This document shows positions 2,396-34,047 of a stretch of 39,553 nt of DNA, piece by piece. The translations under genes were made by a program, and so were the position numbers. The notes under the pieces are model-generated. The model did not search any database and had not been told where the DNA came from. It saw only the letters and a list, made by a program, of their open reading frames with translations. Source of the stretch: Cytophagaceae bacterium (GTDB lineage Bacteria; Bacteroidota; Bacteroidia; Flavobacteriales; Flavobacteriaceae); contig PAUP01000083.1 in assembly GCA_002712765.1 (NCBI GenBank), forward strand, positions 1-39,553. Reading direction: 5' to 3'. Numbering within the stretch: the first letter of the stretch is position 1; every line of letters begins with the position of its first letter.

Positions 2396-2838
2396 TTAAT
2401 ATATCCCGCACTTTAGATATTGGCCTTTGCATGTCCGTCGTGCACGATGACCGCATATGGGCGACGACGGCAGAAGATGGGGCCAATAAAGTGCAGTGCA
2501 TCCCCGACGTCATAAACGAGTATTGGCTAGCCGTTGAAAGGTTCGGCGAGTGTCTAGGCGTAATCCGTTGCCATGCGATGACTACAAATGTGATACAATG
2601 CCATATAAATATATTGCCGGAACACCGCCAACATTCAAAACAAATCGGCCAATTAGCGATAGAATGGATACGCGAAAACACGGAACACCAGAAAATCTAT
2701 ACACAAGTACCCGCTATTTGTGAAAACGTGATCAAATACCTAGTTAGTTTTGGATTTAACGAAGAAGGCGAAATCAAAAACTATTGGCTAAAAGGTGGCA
2801 AGCTTCACAGCGTCACAATTCTAACTAAGGATCTATAA
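2392..2838 (+). CDS. GNAT-like P22 gp14-type protein (head assembly region)
   Basis: The 148-aa protein has the shape of a GNAT-fold protein. A central strand region (WLAVERFGECLGVIRCHAMTTNVIQCHINILPEHRQHSKQIG) corresponds to acetyl-CoA-type beta4/beta5, and a helix beginning AIEWIREN and the strand KIYTQVPAICENVIKYLVSFGF follow. Proteins of this type lie just before the ejection proteins in P22-like phages (gene 14, often labelled DUF2824), and the position here is the same. No catalytic acetyltransferase activity is established for that phage family as far as I know. The start ATG 2392 overlaps the previous stop as ATGA. The stop overlaps the next ATG (TAATG at 2836-2840). Confidence 0.65.
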   Translation: MINISRTLDIGLCMSVVHDDRIWATTAEDGANKVQCIPDVINEYWLAVERFGECLGVIRCHAMTTNVIQCHINILPEHRQHSKQIGQLAIEWIRENTEHQKIYTQVPAICENVIKYLVSFGFNEEGEIKNYWLKGGKLHSVTILTKDL

Positions 2839-5561
2839 TGCCTGCATATGTAGCCGCAGCCGTTGCCGTTTACGGGGCCGTACAAGGTCAGAAAAACGCG
2901 AAAACACAAGCCAAACAGATTGACCAAGCCGGGGAGCGTTCTAGCGCCCTTGCAGCTCAAGCGCGACAAGATGCCCTAACACTTTACGGGCCAGCGTTTC
3001 AGCGCATGTTCGACGCCACGCAAACCGCAAAAGATGAGCTGATCTCCGGCAGACAGCGCACTTTTGATGTGTTGCAACAGGCCACGGGGAACGCTCAGCA
3101 GTTTCTAACGCAAGGGGCACAGGCCGCACAGTCAGCGTTATTGGGTCAACCTTCACAGGCTTTCAATGATAGCACTATGTTTCAAGGAGACATACAGCAA
3201 GGAGTTGGCCTCGGCGGTGCATTCAACGCTGGCAACAACGCGCAAAACATCGTTAATTTTCAGCAAGGAATAGGCGGCCAAACCGTCGGCGGAAATCTCA
3301 TTGATCCGGCTTTCTCACAGACTGACCAGCAAATCACCCCGGAGCAATTGGGCGAACAAGTCCCGGTCGGCGCAGGGGAGGCGGACACGGAAAAAAGTAA
3401 ACAGCCACCATTAAAGGGGCCAATCCGCCCACCAGAAACAGACATCCACCCACCCAAGGCGGGCCGGGGTGCGGGCAATTTTGAGGGGAGTTTAATGAAT
3501 AGACCACTACCGGGGCCAACTACCGGGGGGATTCGCCCTGCAGCAGGTGTGCCAACTCTAAGCGCTGCAGATTTAGGGACAAACGCGGGACAGTTTCAAC
3601 AGTTTGACCGTTCACAGATAGTTAACCAGCCAGTTTTTGCGGGTGGCGACCCTAGACTAGGGAACCGCCCAATGGATCAGTTACATGGGGCGGGCGCTAT
3701 CACACAGCAAACGCGCATCCCTTCACGAAATATGGACGGCACAGCCCCGCAACTAGGGGGAATACGCACGACCGCAGGAACTCCGATAAACACTGACTTT
3801 GACCTAGTCCGCCCTGATGTCTCTATCCCCGGTGGGGGTCAGACAATTGGCGGCAATCTAACGGGCCAGTTTGATATGGGGCCATTCCAAGGGAATAATG
3901 TGCCTGTTGCAGGCATCATTGACAACCCACAGCAATTAATAGCGACATTGATCCAACAAAACAACCAGCAGCAAGCGTCAAACCTGCAGGGGTTCGATTT
4001 AGGACAACAGCCTAACCCATTCGCTAATCAACAGACACCATCAAACATTGGTTTAGGTGGTGCAGAAACCGCACTAGGCATGGGTTTAGCCGGGGCAACT
4101 AATGCAATTGGTGGGGGTATCGCGGGCGCGGCCAACACCGTAGGGCAGGGGGTCATGGGGTCAGAGCAAGCCATACGCGACGCAACTATGAAGCAATTAC
4201 AAGCGTTGCAGGGTGGAACAGGTCAGGCTATCGGCTCATTAACTGGGTTTGGTGATATCGCCCGCGGAGATATGCTTGCCGGGGCAATGGCCGCAGACGA
4301 CACGCTAGGTCAGACCCGCGGGGATGTGCTTTCTAGTTTTGGCGGGGCTAATCAGCAAATAGGCCGAACCTTTGACCGTGCCCGAAATGACATTGCAAAC
4401 ATAACGGGCCAAAGCATCGGCAGAATTGATCAATCTCAAGGGCAGGCACTAGACCAAATACGCCAAGGCACAACGGCGGCGACGGGTAGACTTGATCCTT
4501 TTGCGTCTACAGGCATGACGGCCCTTCAAAGGGAGGCGGCGCTATCAGGCGCACTTGGCCCCGAAGCTGAAGCCGCAGCACAGCAAGAGTTCACAGAGTC
4601 GGCGGGCCAAAAGTTTTTACGCGAAAGACAGGAAAAAGCGCTACTACAAAATGCCAAAGCTACCGGGTTAGGGACGCGAGGCGGTAATGTGTTAACAGCT
4701 CTACAAGAGCAGGCCGCAGGCATCGCAGCACAGCAACAGCAGCAACGCCTTGAAAACATGCGCAGCTTAGCAGGCAGAGGACAAGACGCCGCAGGACAGC
4801 AAGGCGCTTTTGAAATGCAAGGCGGCCTAGCAGGTAATCAGGCCATACAAAATTTCTCGGGCCAAAGGGCAGGGGCTTTTGGGCAACAAGCGGGATTAAC
4901 TGGACAAATGGCAGGGCAGCAAGCGGGATTAACTGGACAACTAGCAGGGCAGCAAGCGGGCCAGCTCGCAGGCATTGGCGGGCAGCGTGCCGGACTACAA
5001 GCCCAAACAGGCCAAAACCTAGCAGGTCTAACGCAGAACATTGGCGGCAATGTCGCAGGGCTGCAAGCGGGACTAGGAGGTCAACAGGCGGGAGTTTTTG
5101 GCAATCAAGGCCAGTTCATCGGGGCAAATCGATTTAATGCCGCGCAAAACTTAGCAGGTATGCAGAACCAAGCGGGCCAAAACTTAGCAGGTATCCGCGC
5201 AGGGTTCGGCCAAAACTTAGCAGGTATCCGCAATGAAGCGGGCCAAAACTTAGCGCAACAAAATAATGCTCTCGCGGCCATGCTTGCACAGCAACAGACT
5301 AATCTAGGCAGCCAACTAGCAGGGGTTGAGGGTCAAACAGCGGCCAACTTGTCGAACCTTGCAAGACAGCTCGGTGTAGATGAATCGCAATTGCTCGGCA
5401 GCTTGGCGGCATTACTGGGTAATATCTCGGGCGGACAATCTAGTCAACAACTACAATTAGGGCAGTTACAAGCACAAGCCACAGGCGGGCAAGCAGCGGC
5501 GCAACAGAACACAATGGGAACACTTGCACAGCTAATCGGCATGTTCGGCGGCGGCGGTTAA
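2838..5561 (+). CDS. DNA ejection (transfer) protein 1, Gln/Gly/Ala-rich repeats
   Basis: This 907-aa low-complexity protein occupies the position of the first P22-type ejection protein (gp7/gp20/gp16 set), which leaves the virion with the DNA and builds a conduit across the envelope. The N-terminus has a short hydrophobic Ala/Val stretch (residues 3-14) followed by a helical AKTQAKQIDQAGERSSALAAQ segment. Residues ~180-480 are Pro/Gly-rich with repeated IGG-N motifs. The last third is made of repeats built on GQQAGLTGQ and GQNLAGI (DNA repeats around 4870-5260). A compact helical part (residues ~570-640) separates them. It is translationally coupled to the previous gene (TAATG). Function is inferred from position, size and composition, not from catalytic motifs. 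Confidence 0.65.
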   Translation: MPAYVAAAVAVYGAVQGQKNAKTQAKQIDQAGERSSALAAQARQDALTLYGPAFQRMFDATQTAKDELISGRQRTFDVLQQATGNAQQFLTQGAQAAQSALLGQPSQAFNDSTMFQGDIQQGVGLGGAFNAGNNAQNIVNFQQGIGGQTVGGNLIDPAFSQTDQQITPEQLGEQVPVGAGEADTEKSKQPPLKGPIRPPETDIHPPKAGRGAGNFEGSLMNRPLPGPTTGGIRPAAGVPTLSAADLGTNAGQFQQFDRSQIVNQPVFAGGDPRLGNRPMDQLHGAGAITQQTRIPSRNMDGTAPQLGGIRTTAGTPINTDFDLVRPDVSIPGGGQTIGGNLTGQFDMGPFQGNNVPVAGIIDNPQQLIATLIQQNNQQQASNLQGFDLGQQPNPFANQQTPSNIGLGGAETALGMGLAGATNAIGGGIAGAANTVGQGVMGSEQAIRDATMKQLQALQGGTGQAIGSLTGFGDIARGDMLAGAMAADDTLGQTRGDVLSSFGGANQQIGRTFDRARNDIANITGQSIGRIDQSQGQALDQIRQGTTAATGRLDPFASTGMTALQREAALSGALGPEAEAAAQQEFTESAGQKFLRERQEKALLQNAKATGLGTRGGNVLTALQEQAAGIAAQQQQQRLENMRSLAGRGQDAAGQQGAFEMQGGLAGNQAIQNFSGQRAGAFGQQAGLTGQMAGQQAGLTGQLAGQQAGQLAGIGGQRAGLQAQTGQNLAGLTQNIGGNVAGLQAGLGGQQAGVFGNQGQFIGANRFNAAQNLAGMQNQAGQNLAGIRAGFGQNLAGIRNEAGQNLAQQNNALAAMLAQQQTNLGSQLAGVEGQTAANLSNLARQLGVDESQLLGSLAALLGNISGGQSSQQLQLGQLQAQATGGQAAAQQNTMGTLAQLIGMFGGGG
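4866..5260 (+). repeat. in-gene short repeats encoding GQQAGLTGQ / GQNLAGI units
   Basis: Within the first ejection protein gene, near-identical 27-30 base units (core gcgggattaactggacaa, twice near 4889-4940) and several copies of caaaacttagcaggtat (from about 5150 to 5230) are spaced irregularly. They keep frame and encode amphipathic Gln/Gly/Leu-rich repeats. Such repeats can change copy number by slippage or recombination. Confidence 0.8.
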
Positions 5562-22274: not shown

Positions 22275-23087
22275 TCAGTCCAGTTTGAAATACTTTAATG
22301 TTTTCCAAACGCTGTAAAATGTCAGGCCCCCGAAAATAAGCGTGAAGTCTTTATTCGTGGTTTGAATATCAAGTATAAAGCAAACCCCTAGTGTCATCCA
22401 CACTGCTACCCAGAACAGTGTGATCATGCTAACGGCGGCCCATTTCAAAATGGGGCTACCACGGAGGGGTTTTTGTTCTTCGGCGCTTTTACCGCTTATC
22501 ATTTTATATACTCGCTCATGCACCCGGTATATGTAAAAATCGTTCATATTGGCAACTGCCTCGATCACATTCATGACATTGTTCACAAGCTGCGTACGCT
22601 TATCATGGTGCGCGTGGTGGGCCGCGTGGGCCGCCTCTGAACAAGCATAATATATAAGCTCGGACTCTCTACATTTGGCATTGGCGTAGCAATATCGGCA
22701 CTCTTCATAGGCGCACTCTGCCGCGCCCGCACTACTAAGTGACCCTATTTTAATCCAACTTTTAGCCTTTAATATTGAGCGGTGCGCTTCTTGGAAACTG
22801 TCACGCAATCCGATATGTGATTCAATTTTGGTGCCATTCAATGCCATCCCGGCTAGGTCAGTGGCAAGGCAGACAAGATCGACAGGTTCAAGAAGATATG
22901 ACGCCATGGTCACGAAGTCTTCTAATGTTAGCCGCATTTCCTGTGGATGGCTTGTGCCCCGGTAGTATTCGCCCATAAGTTCTGCTAAGTCGACCCGCTC
23001 TATTCCGCAGGGAGCGTTAAATATAAACCGTCTGATTAAATCATCCGAAGGGGTGAACCCCTCAAGTTCTGTAAGTGATATTTTCAT
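22275..23087 (-). CDS. Cys/His/Ala-rich protein with two C-terminal membrane segments, unknown
   Basis: The 270-aa protein has a soluble N-terminal part (FTPSDDLIRRFIFNAPCGIERVD...) and a helix bundle with an unusual Cys run (CAYEECRYCYANAKC). An Ala/His stretch (EAAHAAHHAHH, about residues 155-165) follows, and two hydrophobic segments near the end (about 211-232 and 240-258). The Ala-rich central part resembles families annotated as putative immunity proteins (Imm-5-like), but this is weak. The Cys/His cluster could bind metal. It starts on an ATGA overlap with the pentapeptide gene and shares its 5' junction sequence with that gene's own 5' junction (see the 16-base repeats). Confidence 0.55.
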   Translation of the reverse strand: MKISLTELEGFTPSDDLIRRFIFNAPCGIERVDLAELMGEYYRGTSHPQEMRLTLEDFVTMASYLLEPVDLVCLATDLAGMALNGTKIESHIGLRDSFQEAHRSILKAKSWIKIGSLSSAGAAECAYEECRYCYANAKCRESELIYYACSEAAHAAHHAHHDKRTQLVNNVMNVIEAVANMNDFYIYRVHERVYKMISGKSAEEQKPLRGSPILKWAAVSMITLFWVAVWMTLGVCFILDIQTTNKDFTLIFGGLTFYSVWKTLKYFKLD

Positions 23088-23095
23088 TTTTTAGC
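23080..23095. repeat. 16-base direct repeat, copy 1, bordering the pentapeptide gene
   Basis: Bases attttcattttttagc at 23080-23095 recur at 23694-23709; extended by 5 more bases, 20 of 21 match. The two copies lie exactly on the 3' and 5' borders of the pentapeptide gene, and each encodes an ...AKK stop overlapping an ATGAAA start. Confidence 0.85.
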
Positions 23096-23701
23096 ACCTC
23101 TCAAGTCTGCACCGCGCAAGTTTGCACGGTTCAAGTCCGCCTCTATCAAGTTGGCATGTCTCAAGTTTGCGCGGTTCAAGTCCGCATGTCTCAAGTCTGC
23201 CCCGGCCAATTTTGCACAGCGCAAGTCTGCATCCCTCAAGTCTGCATCCCTCATGTCTGCACCGCTCATGTCCGCAAAGAACAAGTTCGCATCCCTCAAT
23301 TCTGCACCGCTCATGTCTGCACCGCGCAAGGTTGCACTGCTCAAGTTTGCACCTTTCAAGTTTGCACTGCTTAAGTCTGCATGTTTCAAGTTTGCACTGC
23401 TCAAGTCTGCATGTTTCAAGTTTGCACCGAACAAGTTTGCACCGAACAAGTTTACACCGCGCAAGTTTGCACCGAACAAGTTTACACCGCGCAAGTTTGC
23501 ACCTCTCAAGTTTGCGCTGCTCAATTCCACATATCTCAATTCCGCACTGCTCAAGTCTGCTTGTCTCAAGTCGGCATGTGTCAAGTCGGCATGTGTCAAG
23601 TCTGCTTGTCTCAAGTCTGCACCGCGCAAGTCTTCACCTCTCAGGCATATATTGCCGGGGGCGGCGATTATCTTTTCAAGTTCCGCCTGTGTCATTTTCA
23701 T
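23084..23701 (-). CDS. pentapeptide-repeat protein A
   Basis: This 205-aa protein is almost wholly made of A(D/N)LxX repeats (about 35 units from residue ~19 to 203: GADLR, HADLT, SANLK). These fold as a right-handed square beta-helix, and there is only a short leader, MKMTQAELEKIIAA. Some relatives (Qnr, MfpA) mimic DNA and bind gyrase, but most phage members have no known role. It shares its leader with the second paralogue at 25405, where 38 of the first 41 coding bases match. It is coupled by ATGA to genes on both sides. The 16-base repeats at its two borders suggest it entered as a cassette. Confidence 0.9.
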   Translation of the reverse strand: MKMTQAELEKIIAAPGNICLRGEDLRGADLRQADLTHADLTHADLRQADLSSAELRYVELSSANLRGANLRGVNLFGANLRGVNLFGANLFGANLKHADLSSANLKHADLSSANLKGANLSSATLRGADMSGAELRDANLFFADMSGADMRDADLRDADLRCAKLAGADLRHADLNRANLRHANLIEADLNRANLRGADLRGAKK

Positions 23702-24180: not shown

Positions 24181-24335
24181 TGTTTTGCCCTCATAAATGT
24201 TTGTCCACTAAAACGATAAAAACGGCGTCTTCCCATGGGGTTTTGCTGGTGGATTTTACCCCCTCAAAAAGAGGTGAAATTCTACCCCATTATGGGCTGC
24301 TTTTATAGGCCGTTTGCCTCGTTTTTTACGCTTTT

Positions 24336-24363
24336 AGTATAGACCCTTCGCAAGAGGTGTCAA
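24336..24363 (-). promoter_or_regulatory. strong leftward early promoter
   Basis: On the minus strand TTGACA (24363-24358) and TATACT (24341-24336) are separated by 16 bases, a near-consensus sigma-70 promoter. It would start transcription about 150 bases before the first leftward gene (24180), leaving a leader with a small hairpin (CCTC-AAAAA-GAGG) and a GAGGG ribosome site. Confidence 0.8.
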
Positions 24364-24415: not shown

Positions 24416-24465
24416 AGATCGGATTCCGTAAATTCCTAAAACGGGTAATTTACGGAATCCGATCT
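24416..24465. repeat. perfect 19-bp inverted repeat with 12-base spacer
   Basis: AGATCGGATTCCGTAAATT (24416-24434) is followed by 12 bases and its exact reverse complement (24447-24465). No T-run follows on either strand, so it is not a typical terminator. Each arm contains CCGTAAA/TTTACGG, the half-site of the repeated promoter block. It could be a master operator, an origin hairpin or an RNA hairpin in the transcript. Confidence 0.9.
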
Positions 24466-24506
24466 GTGGTTAACAAGTTTTACATTTGTACCACTACAAG
24501 GTATTT

Positions 24507-24683
24507 TTATGAGTCCAGCTACAGGCCCCGCCGCTAGCGGGCTGGAAAAATTGTGCCCTCATAAACGCTAACTTTCTACTCTTGTATATTGAAAAAAAAA
24601 AATTATACTAAAAACGTAAACGAAAAAAAAATTACAATATAAAGGAACGAAAAGTTACTGTCTATGAGTCCATGAGGGCACGT
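24507..24683 (+). other. structured intergenic element, copy 1
   Basis: This copy has the 20 bases TTTTATGAGTCCAGCTACAG, a GC-rich hairpin ending GCGGGCTG, the segment GTGCCCTCAT (24553-24562), an AT-rich stretch with ACTCTTGTATATTG, and the segment ATGAGGGCAC (24672-24681), exact complement of the former across 109 bases. Copy 2 at 32877 has the same order but GTGGACTCAT / ATGAGTCCAC, a compensatory double change. It may be an RNA domain or paired protein-binding sites around a promoter. No known ribozyme or riboswitch consensus was recognised. Confidence 0.65.
24582..24609 (+). promoter_or_regulatory. rightward promoter inside element 1
   Basis: TTGTAT (24582-24587) and TATACT (24604-24609) are spaced by 16 bases in an A-tract-rich context. 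The -35 neighbourhood (CTCTTGTATATTG) is conserved in element 2. AAAACGTAAA follows the -10 box and resembles the sequence that follows -10 in the leftward promoter. Confidence 0.5.
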
Positions 24684-24710
24684 TTTAAAATTGGGTACTA
24701 TTTTTAGGCA

Positions 24711-24755
24711 TTTTTAAGGGGTATTTTTGACAAGTTTTTAAGGGGTATTTTTGAC
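24711..24755. repeat. iteron-like 21-base direct repeats
   Basis: TTTTTAAGGGGTATTTTTGAC occurs at 24711-24731 and again at 24735-24755 (period 24), with a degenerate partial copy just before (from about 24700) and a related TTTTTGAGGG after. Short tandem direct repeats beside an AT-rich region are typical initiator-binding sites. Confidence 0.75.
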
Positions 24756-24903
24756 CGGGTTTTTGAGGGCTAAATATTGGCAGAATTGGCGGGTTTTTAT
24801 GATGCAGTTTTTGGGGCCGATTTTGTGCAGTTTTGGAGATAAAAACTTAAGAATTGAAAAAATGCCCCCCTTAAAAAGTTTTCAATTTATTTCAATTTTA
24901 TAC

Positions 24904-25404: not shown

Positions 25405-25968
25405 ATGAAAATGACACAGGCAGAACTTGACAAGATAATCGCAGCGGGCCATGTAGACTTGCGCCGTGCAGACTTGCGCCGTGCAGACTTGCGCCATGTA
25501 GACTTGCGCCGTGCAGACTTGCGCGATGCAGACTTGCGCCGTGCAGACTTGCGCGGTGCAGACTTGAGCCATGCAAAATTGCGCGGTGCAAACTTGATCG
25601 ATGCAAACTTGAGACACGCATACTTGATACACGCAGAATTAAACGAGGCAGACTTAGGATTTGCGGACTTGAGGGGTGCAAACTTGAGGGGTGCAAACTT
25701 GAGATATGCAGAATTAAGCGAGGCAAACTTGAGCAGAGCAGACTTGCAGTACTCAATGGGGGATGGGCGTCGTATAAAAACTCTACACTGTGGAATGTAT
25801 CACGTCGTTATGTGGGATGATTGCATGGCTATCGGATGCACTAGCAAGAGCGTTGATGAATGGCTAGGTCTCAGTGAAGATGATATCCACCGCATTGACC
25901 GCTACGCGGTAAAGTGGGCGAAAACTTGGAAACCAATTCTAGAAATGATTTTAAAAGCAGAGGTGTGA
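25405..25968 (+). CDS. pentapeptide-repeat protein B with extra C-terminal domain
   Basis: The 187-aa protein starts with the same leader as pentapeptide protein A (MKMTQAELDKIIAA), then has about 20 pentapeptide units (residues ~17-115, mostly RRADL / RGANL) forming a beta-helix. The last ~70 residues form a different domain (RRIKTLHCGMYHVVMWDDCMAIGCTSKSVDEWL ... RIDRYAVKWAKTWKPILEMIL). I recognise that domain as a common C-terminal partner of phage and bacterial pentapeptide proteins, of unknown function. The DNA repeats (gcagacttgcgccgt) are nearly perfect, pointing to recent expansion. It has its own operator-bearing promoter; no strong ribosome site is visible. Confidence 0.88.
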   Translation: MKMTQAELDKIIAAGHVDLRRADLRRADLRHVDLRRADLRDADLRRADLRGADLSHAKLRGANLIDANLRHAYLIHAELNEADLGFADLRGANLRGANLRYAELSEANLSRADLQYSMGDGRRIKTLHCGMYHVVMWDDCMAIGCTSKSVDEWLGLSEDDIHRIDRYAVKWAKTWKPILEMILKAEV

Positions 25969-32846: not shown

Positions 32847-32876
32847 AAAGTGCCCACCTAAAAACGGGACAAAATT

Positions 32877-33055
32877 TTATGAGTCCAGCTACAGCCCTTT
32901 AGGTATGCGGGCTGCAAATTTTGTGGACTCATAGACACCATTTTTTAACTCTTATATATTGGGATTTTTTTTTACACATAACGTACATATAAAAAAAATA
33001 TTATATATAGGGGAGAAATAAAGCGCGTTTTACGCGTCCATGAGTCCACAAGGGC
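32877..33055 (+). other. structured intergenic element, copy 2
   Basis: This copy has TTTTATGAGTCCAGCTACAG, hairpin CAGCCC...GGGCTG, the segment GTGGACTCAT (32923-32932), ACTCTTATATATTG, AT-rich sequence and ATGAGTCCAC (33040-33049). GTGGACTCAT can pair with the upstream ATGAGTCCA (32879) or with the downstream ATGAGTCCAC across 107 bases, so two exclusive structures are possible. It lies between the co-chaperonin and scaffold genes and may carry the promoter for the head genes. Confidence 0.65.
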
Positions 33056-33087
33056 AATGTTTAAGAAAATAGACAAAAGGTGATAAT

Positions 33088-34047
33088 ATGGCAGATGGTA
33101 AAGACACGACCACCCAAGAAGAACAAAACGAAAACATGGCAGATTTTGATCTGCAAGATTTTATAAACTCCGACCCGGATAATGATGTCATCGAAGGGGA
33201 AGTCGAAGAAGTGGTCGACGACAACGACGACAACGTCGATGAGCTGGACGACGACAATGTCGATGAGCTGGACGACGACCCCGAGGTCGACCCTGAAATC
33301 GAGAAGGCCCGCGCAGGCGGCCACGTCAGCAAAGATGAATGGGTTGCGCAAGGTAAAGACCCCGACGATTGGGTGAGCGCTCGACGGTTCAATGAACGCG
33401 GCAGCATGATCGATACAATCAAAAACCTACAAGAGCAGACCAAAACTTTTGACAAACGACTAGAAAACGTTAACACCCTTGCGATGCTCCAATTGCAGCA
33501 GGTGCAAACACAGCTTGCATCCCTTGAGCAAGAAAAGCGCGAAGCTATCGAAATGGGGGACGTTGAACTAGTTGATCAGCTACAAAACCAAATCAACAAC
33601 GGGCAAGGTACGGTAAACATATTAAATAATCAGATACAGTCTGAACAGAAACCGCAGGGGGTCCCATCTGATGTCGTGCAACTCGAAACTGAGTGGAACA
33701 GTCGTAATCCTTGGATCAACACCACCGACCCAACTAACCCGGATTTTGGTAAAGCTCATTTTGCTCAAGGGCTATACGCCAATTTACTCAACCAAGGTGT
33801 CGCCCCTGCAAATGCTTTGCAACAGGTCGATCGTACCGTCCTTGAGAAATTCCCACCAGTTAACCCCCGCCGCAAAGAAGCAGGGGCGGCGGACTCGTCA
33901 AAACCAAAAGGCACAGCCCCAAAAGGCGGGAAACTTTCATGGTCGGACTTATCGCACGATGAAATAAAACTTTTTAACGGGATGGCGGGGACTTGGACTA
34001 AAGAAGAATTTCTCCAAACCGTTGCAGATTCACGCAAAACTAACTAA
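33088..34047 (+). CDS. scaffolding protein
   Basis: The 319-aa acidic protein has an Asp/Glu-rich N-terminus with a duplicated NVDELDD motif (residues ~48-66, a 24-base DNA repeat) and a moderately conserved ARRFNERGSMIDTIKNLQEQTKTF. A long helical coiled-coil region (about 110-185, LQQVQTQLASLEQEKREAIEMG...) and a Pro/Lys/Gly-rich linker before a C-terminal helix (SWSDLSHDEIKLFNGMAGTWTKEEFLQTV) follow. This is the profile of phage scaffolds, which organise coat assembly and then leave. AAGGTGAT precedes the ATG. The location between portal/co-chaperonin and coat is typical. Confidence 0.75.
   Translation: MADGKDTTTQEEQNENMADFDLQDFINSDPDNDVIEGEVEEVVDDNDDNVDELDDDNVDELDDDPEVDPEIEKARAGGHVSKDEWVAQGKDPDDWVSARRFNERGSMIDTIKNLQEQTKTFDKRLENVNTLAMLQLQQVQTQLASLEQEKREAIEMGDVELVDQLQNQINNGQGTVNILNNQIQSEQKPQGVPSDVVQLETEWNSRNPWINTTDPTNPDFGKAHFAQGLYANLLNQGVAPANALQQVDRTVLEKFPPVNPRRKEAGAADSSKPKGTAPKGGKLSWSDLSHDEIKLFNGMAGTWTKEEFLQTVADSRKTN

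Follow-up and report, generated by a model that had tools for sequence, protein, structure and literature searches.

Phage HK022 carries two copies of a structured intergenic element, the put antitermination RNAs, in one genome. The element described here likewise occurs twice in one phage, its structure being predicted from the DNA sequence. Cluster A mycobacteriophages such as L5 and TipsytheTRex carry asymmetric 13-bp stoperators in promoter regions and short intergenic spaces (PMC9283540), and P2-like phages and phage 186 (pR-pL) have face-to-face early promoters with Apl/Cox sites, the promoters of P2-like phages being 40-60 bp apart (PMC7498355). The present locus resembles the L5 type in that asymmetric 13-bp sites lie in the promoter and intergenic DNA of a single phage genome. 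However, L5 has more than 20 such sites and this phage eight, in two clusters, and stoperator orientation follows transcription, whereas the boxes found here stand in inverted pairs and coincide with a -35-like hexamer. With the P2-like phages and 186 it shares two promoters that face each other together with operator repeats, although the promoters are here predicted from sequence; the Apl sites are described as direct repeats between the promoters, whereas the boxes of this phage lie at and behind each -35, and, unlike in those phages, a second copy precedes the capsid genes. A stoperator-type two-domain repressor had no Pfam or PHROG match among the 32 window ORFs scanned (Pfam and/or PHROGs), and the same scans recognised neither a repressor nor an integrase. 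These likenesses do not place the phage in either system.

The stretch of DNA analysed, called the window, is a contig of 39,553 bases (G000:C83 = IMGVR_UViG_2788499960_000007) with a 99-base terminal direct repeat, on the strength of which it is probably a complete phage genome. Genes with family matches on the + strand code for the small and large terminase, the portal, a GroES-like protein and the major head protein, and those on the - strand for polymerase, primase, exonuclease, helicase and ssDNA-binding proteins. For the ORF at 33088, PHROGs gave no match; it is labelled a putative scaffold because its homologues, too, are found between the GroES-like gene and the head gene. The element is found at two positions:

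24505..24685, + strand: copy 1, in the control region
32875..33055, + strand: copy 2, between the GroES-like gene and the putative scaffold gene

Copy 1 is part of some 570 bp of non-coding DNA that separates the leftward replication genes from the rightward genes. The copies are homologous over about 180 bp, non-coding, and each contains a strong long dyad; within the window they match each other with an E-value of about 2e-10, with 77% identity over the first 87 bases. Each opens with the same 20-mer, TTTTATGAGTCCAGCTACAG, starting at 24505 and 32875, two bases ahead of the starts given in the earlier note. From its left end, each copy runs through the ATGAGTCCA box in inverted orientation, GC-rich DNA that ends in GCGGGCTG, segment A', a T-rich spacer, TATATTG and an A/T-rich middle to a 3' part with ATGAG boxes; the block from the upstream box to A' spans 56 bp in both. 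TTGTG and ACTCTTRTATATTG are likewise present in both copies, and the complementary segments are as first reported, namely A' GTGCCCTCAT (24553-24562) and A'' ATGAGGGCAC (24672-24681) in copy 1, and A' GTGGACTCAT (32923-32932) and A'' ATGAGTCCAC (33040-33049) in copy 2. A common GC hairpin had also been proposed, of which the 3' GCGGGCTG is indeed identical, but the 5' arms differ, so that the two copies form different hairpins. In an alignment of the clipped copies, the spacer ACTCTT and the GCGGGCTG block are kept.

The longest perfect inverted arms measure 10 bases in copy 1 and 12 bases in copy 2, lengths equalled in 2/300 and 0/300 dinucleotide shuffles, respectively, and the RNA fold of the A'-A'' stretch has z-scores of -4.2 (copy 1) and -7.0 (copy 2). 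Given the identity between the copies, the rarity of such arms and these z-scores, the observation of a dyad present twice is more than chance. A conserved small ORF beginning at ATGAGTCCAGCTACAG was considered and rejected, because inspection by eye revealed a stop after seven codons in copy 2.

The repeated segments of the element fit an asymmetric 13-bp motif, TGSMCTCATRRAC. Allowing at most one mismatch, it matches the window eight times, in every case outside genes as called, with seven matches in the copies and one elsewhere; the mean in shuffles is 0.42 and the maximum 3, and none of 100 shuffles reaches eight. The motif was written from these same sites, so the enrichment is partly circular and the contrast of 8 with 0.42 overstates its significance; independent evidence for the box comes from the site at 24186. 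As a background, 83 capsid-relative loci (L033-L115; 840,625 bases) hold seven box matches, all single and unclustered, one in each of seven loci. The boxes are as follows:

24186..24198, + strand: outside box TGCCCTCATAAAT, just upstream of the first leftward ORF and more than 300 bp from the next box
24505..24517, - strand: copy 1 upstream box TGGACTCATAAAA, motif match
24554..24566, + strand: copy 1 A' box TGCCCTCATAAAC, at the -35 of the rightward promoter-like core
24660..24672, - strand: copy 1 box1 TGGACTCATAGAC, aligning with A'' of copy 2
24668..24680, - strand: copy 1 box2 TGCCCTCATGGAC, containing the A'' of the earlier note
32875..32887, - strand: copy 2 upstream box TGGACTCATAAAA, motif match
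32924..32936, + strand: copy 2 A' box TGGACTCATAGAC, motif match
33036..33048, - strand: copy 2 box1 TGGACTCATGGAC, containing the A'' of the earlier note
33044..33056, - strand: copy 2 degenerate box2 TGCCCTTGTGGAC, two mismatches to the motif

The 3' part of each copy thus holds two tandem boxes offset by 8 bp, of which box1 is ATGAGTCCA in both copies, and box2 is of the GGGCA type in both and degenerate in copy 2. Among the 32 window ORFs scanned (Pfam and/or PHROGs) no DNA-binding regulator was recognised; the only HTH match was to the small terminase and stayed below its cut-off.

Several of the boxes run into promoter-like sequences, which are located as follows:

24562..24590, + strand: rightward core TAAACG-17-TATATT of copy 1, with a weak -35
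24636..24664, - strand: leftward sigma-70-like core TAGACA-17-TATATT of copy 1, 10/12, facing the rightward core
32932..32960, + strand: rightward sigma-70-like core TAGACA-17-TATATT of copy 2, 10/12, some 130 bp ahead of the putative scaffold ORF
24336..24363, - strand: leftward promoter-like site TTGACA-16-TATACT, 11/12, in the control region

In three of the four half-elements formed by A' and box1, the box passes at its end into a -35-like hexamer (TAAACG at A' of copy 1, TAGACA at A' of copy 2 and TAGACA at box1 of copy 1), with TATATT following 17 bp on. TATATT is absent at that spacing from box1 of copy 2, where the spacer of the leftward half is longer and a matching core is lacking, and from the upstream boxes, box2 and the box at 24186. 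The two 10/12 cores, on the - strand of copy 1 and the + strand of copy 2, sit at the same place relative to their box. Cores of this quality occur anywhere in 4.6% and 12% of the element shuffles, and are only mildly unusual for such an A/T-rich composition. The sigma-70-type site at 24336 fits Bacteroidota promoters poorly, and the link between phage and host may for this reason be a matter of binning.

The earlier note had left a choice between an RNA switch and paired protein sites around a promoter. Its protein-site and promoter half is supported by the eight boxes, one of them outside the copies, and by promoter-like cores at a fixed distance from boxes, whereas its argument from selection for pairing does not hold up, as discussed below. 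We consider it slightly better than an even bet that the element is a phage-specific DNA promoter/operator module, present twice. In such a module, a candidate phage-coded regulator would bind the asymmetric 13-bp box, the end of which would serve as the -35 of a sigma-70-like promoter in both A' boxes and in box1 of copy 1, with TATATT 17 bp on as the -10. Two promoters of this kind would face each other across the A/T-rich stretch in copy 1, and the leftward half of copy 2 would have lost the spacing. In each copy, the inverted box that precedes A' by 45 bp may act as an auxiliary or looping site. The complementarity of A' and A'' would follow from the opposite orientations of the boxes. Copy 1 would then control rightward transcription from the main control region, a role with which the change of GC skew at 24-25 kb agrees, although gene orientation changes there as well, and copy 2 would provide the scaffold and capsid genes with an additional promoter, at a point where the compared relatives lack a spacer; the binding protein, promoter activity, regulation, looping and timing are predictions of this model. 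Against it stand the negative result for a regulator among the ORFs scanned, the modest rarity of the promoter cores, the unbroken RNAalifold pairs of the clipped alignment described below, a conservation of ACTCTT and GCGGGCTG that exceeds what a plain promoter would need, and an RNA fold of copy 2 far better than that of its shuffles. If correct, the model offers a specific operator/promoter candidate for a little-studied phage group.

The position of copy 2 was compared with relatives sought by terminase, portal, primase and capsid; the portal and primase scans of IMG/VR returned the window alone. Among 29 loci examined, 19 had both GroES-like and scaffold hits, 18 of which are distinct (L112 repeats L044), though these 18 are not independent of one another. 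With the spacer measured from the earliest possible start codon in the window and relatives alike, the two genes overlap or lie at most 4 nt apart in 16 of the 18 (L044, for instance, has a 1-nt overlap), and in the remaining two, L033 (242 nt) and L037 (143 nt), the gap is occupied by a small ORF. A non-coding GroES-scaffold spacer of more than 4 nt was therefore found in none of the 18 distinct relatives having both genes; the window junction comprises 241 nt without a gene. The upstream ORFs matched Cpn10 of Pfam in 10/10 cases at E-values of at most 0.001, nine of them above the curated cut-off. Since the junction is closed in these relatives, copy 2 is an extra element there, and would illustrate how a control element can come to stand between GroES-like and scaffold genes that otherwise adjoin.

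A structured RNA is the main alternative to the promoter/operator module, and we regard it as rather unlikely. According to this explanation, a read-through transcript would fold into a long, imperfect hairpin closed by A' and A'', the upstream ATGAGTCCA being able to pair with A' instead, and the structure would work as a switch, an antiterminator or an RNase processing site ahead of two transcription units. What favours an RNA role is that each copy folds well and that a partner is available to A' in every case: besides the A'-A'' z-scores, the hairpin of upstream box and A' in copy 2 has a z-score of -3.8, the perfect arms are longer than the 9-base box core, and the tandem second box of copy 1 still allows pairing. 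The corresponding hairpin of copy 1 (z-score -1.24), however, folds no better than shuffles. Rfam gave no match at the gathering threshold in the window and sub-threshold matches only at the copies; the one to a microRNA precursor at copy 2, which counts in favour of an RNA, reflects a long hairpin. The presence of a box outside the copies, at 24186, also speaks against an RNA, as do the promoter-like cores inside the element, transcripts from which would omit A'. Across the dyads, read on the + strand, 7 GU pairs stand against 6 A-C mismatches (3:4 in copy 1, 4:2 in copy 2), along with 8 other mismatches; on these few counts, selection at the RNA level is not apparent. The possibility that ATGAGTCC belongs to a hammerhead was dismissed after visual comparison with the hammerhead core motif; ATGAGTCC or its complement occurs in 8 of the 83 capsid loci, and AGCTACAG or its complement in 12 of the first 25.

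The argument for RNA pairing had depended on two adjacent positions that appeared to have changed on both sides of A' and A''. MAFFT, applied to the clipped copies, picks the register on which this claim was based, and RNAalifold on that alignment yields 33 pairs, none broken, with 3 one-side and 4 both-side changes, the latter split evenly, two each, between A'/A'' and a small 3' stem; this is the strongest point for the earlier note. With the 3' flanks included, however, the matching A'' segments are not homologous, and the small 3' stem rests on the same register. Copy 1 has ATGAGTCCA at 24664-24672 besides ATGAGGGCAC from 24672, and a global alignment with flanks places 24664 on 33040 and 24672 on 33048 (ACAAGGGCA) at 6/6 gap settings. 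Box1 is thereby paired with box1, in conflict with the assumption that A'' occupies one homologous position in both copies. The minus-strand flanks agree by eye, copy 1 ttaaaacgTGCCCTCATGGAC standing opposite copy 2 ttaaacatTGCCCTTGTGGAC. The ungapped preference is moderate, with 37/75 identical in the box1-box1 register versus 32/75 in the earlier one. Copy 1 can also be compared with itself, without recourse to copy 2: its left half aligns without gaps to its reverse-complemented right half from CTCAT through TATATTG (27/37 identical), and this alignment passes through box1 (24660-24672) and not box2, so that the two altered A' bases again stand opposite an unchanged box1.

The box1-with-box1 register is therefore the best supported, though not certain. 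The type of A' corresponds to box2 in the first copy and to box1 in the second. On the evidence of the flanked alignment and of the alignment of the copy 1 halves, we read A' as having changed on one side only, with two tandem types of downstream box supplying the match in each copy. The claim that the compensatory changes reflect selection for base pairing is thus unsupported, as in this register the two altered A' bases of copy 1 face unchanged ATGAGTCCA, and the seeming covariation is probably a comparison of two different boxes and not of matched mutations. Two tandem box types can mimic compensatory covariation when two copies are aligned with their flanks cut, which calls for caution.

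A replication origin module, in which the boxes would be iteron-like initiator sites flanking an A/T-rich unwinding region and copy 2 a secondary origin, is an unlikely explanation. It draws on the location of copy 1, since GC skew switches sign at 24-25 kb, where gene orientation also switches, as expected for a control/origin region. The same non-coding region holds two 24-base direct repeats beginning TTTTTAAGGGGTATTTTTGAC (24711-24758; 92% identical), which are iteron-like and closely follow copy 1, and a perfect inverted repeat (24416-24465), whose arms are 18 bases or longer and which is not followed by a T-run; it stands ahead of copy 1, on the side of the leftward promoter-like site, which it separates from that copy. 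No lasting change of skew accompanies copy 2, however, the boxes are not regularly spaced repeats, and promoter-like cores at a fixed distance from three boxes also speak against it.

The DNA and RNA explanations could also be combined in a dual switch, to which we assign a distinctly low probability: the boxes would be operators in DNA and pair as RNA in read-through transcripts, A' choosing between one upstream and two tandem downstream partners. If this were true, complementarity would be kept by a change of partner and not by compensatory mutation, and the element would link early control to capsid expression. It is very unlikely that the element is small mobile or duplicated DNA of the MITE-like kind that itself regulates nothing and reached the GroES-scaffold junction by copying. 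The absence of copy 2 from the 18 relatives compared and the inverted ends of both copies are compatible with such an origin, but no transposase was found among the 32 ORFs scanned, no target duplication is evident by eye, one box lies outside the copies and the collections searched held no further copies. Template-switch (quasipalindrome) mutation can leave multibase compensatory changes (PMC8794818) and would explain the two-base match without selection if the register picked by MAFFT on the clipped copies were right, but this is highly improbable, because with flanks the matching arms lie at non-homologous positions and no such process is needed.

Searches of IMG/VR, of phages, of plasmids and of the host order brought no recognisable homologue of the element to light. 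A conserved-block pattern matched the window's own record alone, and a spaced pattern matched only the window among 296 genomes of the host order. Three single matches outside the window's record were taken as chance: one to an exact 17-mer in IMG/VR (L005), which lies inside an ORF, one to the pattern of upstream box and A' (L118), which overlaps a mechanical ORF, and one to the box-promoter pattern (L119), judged from its sequence. Distant blastn searches of phages with both copies and of plasmids with copy 2 only gave 1, 3 and 1 records, all partial, covering 10-27% of the query with a best E-value of 1e-3. The DNA of copy 2 matched 42 of 99 host-related genomes at E-values of at most 0.1, the window's own included; the best match outside the window had an E-value of 4.2e-4 over 39 bases, and these short matches fell mostly on the A/T-rich part. 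A covariance model built from the two copies, run on 986,006 bases from 71 sources, matched both copies and their own reverse strands (E-values 5e-5 and 0.17) and L088 (E-value 0.71), so that below 0.7 only the window was found.

Six fuller relatives, each compared with itself across its intergenic gaps (at least 90 bases, E-value at most 0.01), showed no intergenic element in two copies; repeats were confined to single gaps, apart from one 16-base match that joins two gaps of OK172329. Long gene-free stretches occur in three capsid relatives, L130 (G066; about 690-850), L128 (G066; 645-1374) and L136 (G068; 2553-3200). ARAGORN and Rfam (gathering threshold) were negative on these three loci; long-range helices can be drawn in the stretches by eye, for example GCATTGA..AGAGT/ACTCT..TCAATGC, and one stretch ends in a tRNA-like GGTTCGATTCCC arm. 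Another contig of the window's assembly, L030 (G000:C67; 38% GC), codes for a distant relative of the portal that is 30-33% identical. Finally, the control region is flanked on opposite strands by two pentapeptide-repeat-like proteins, at 23084-23701 (-) and 25405-25968 (+), so labelled from their sequence pattern; both begin with MKMTQAEL(E/D)KIIAA, their DNA has a 15-nt periodicity, and the PHROGs match of the protein at 25405-25968 is to families of unknown function.
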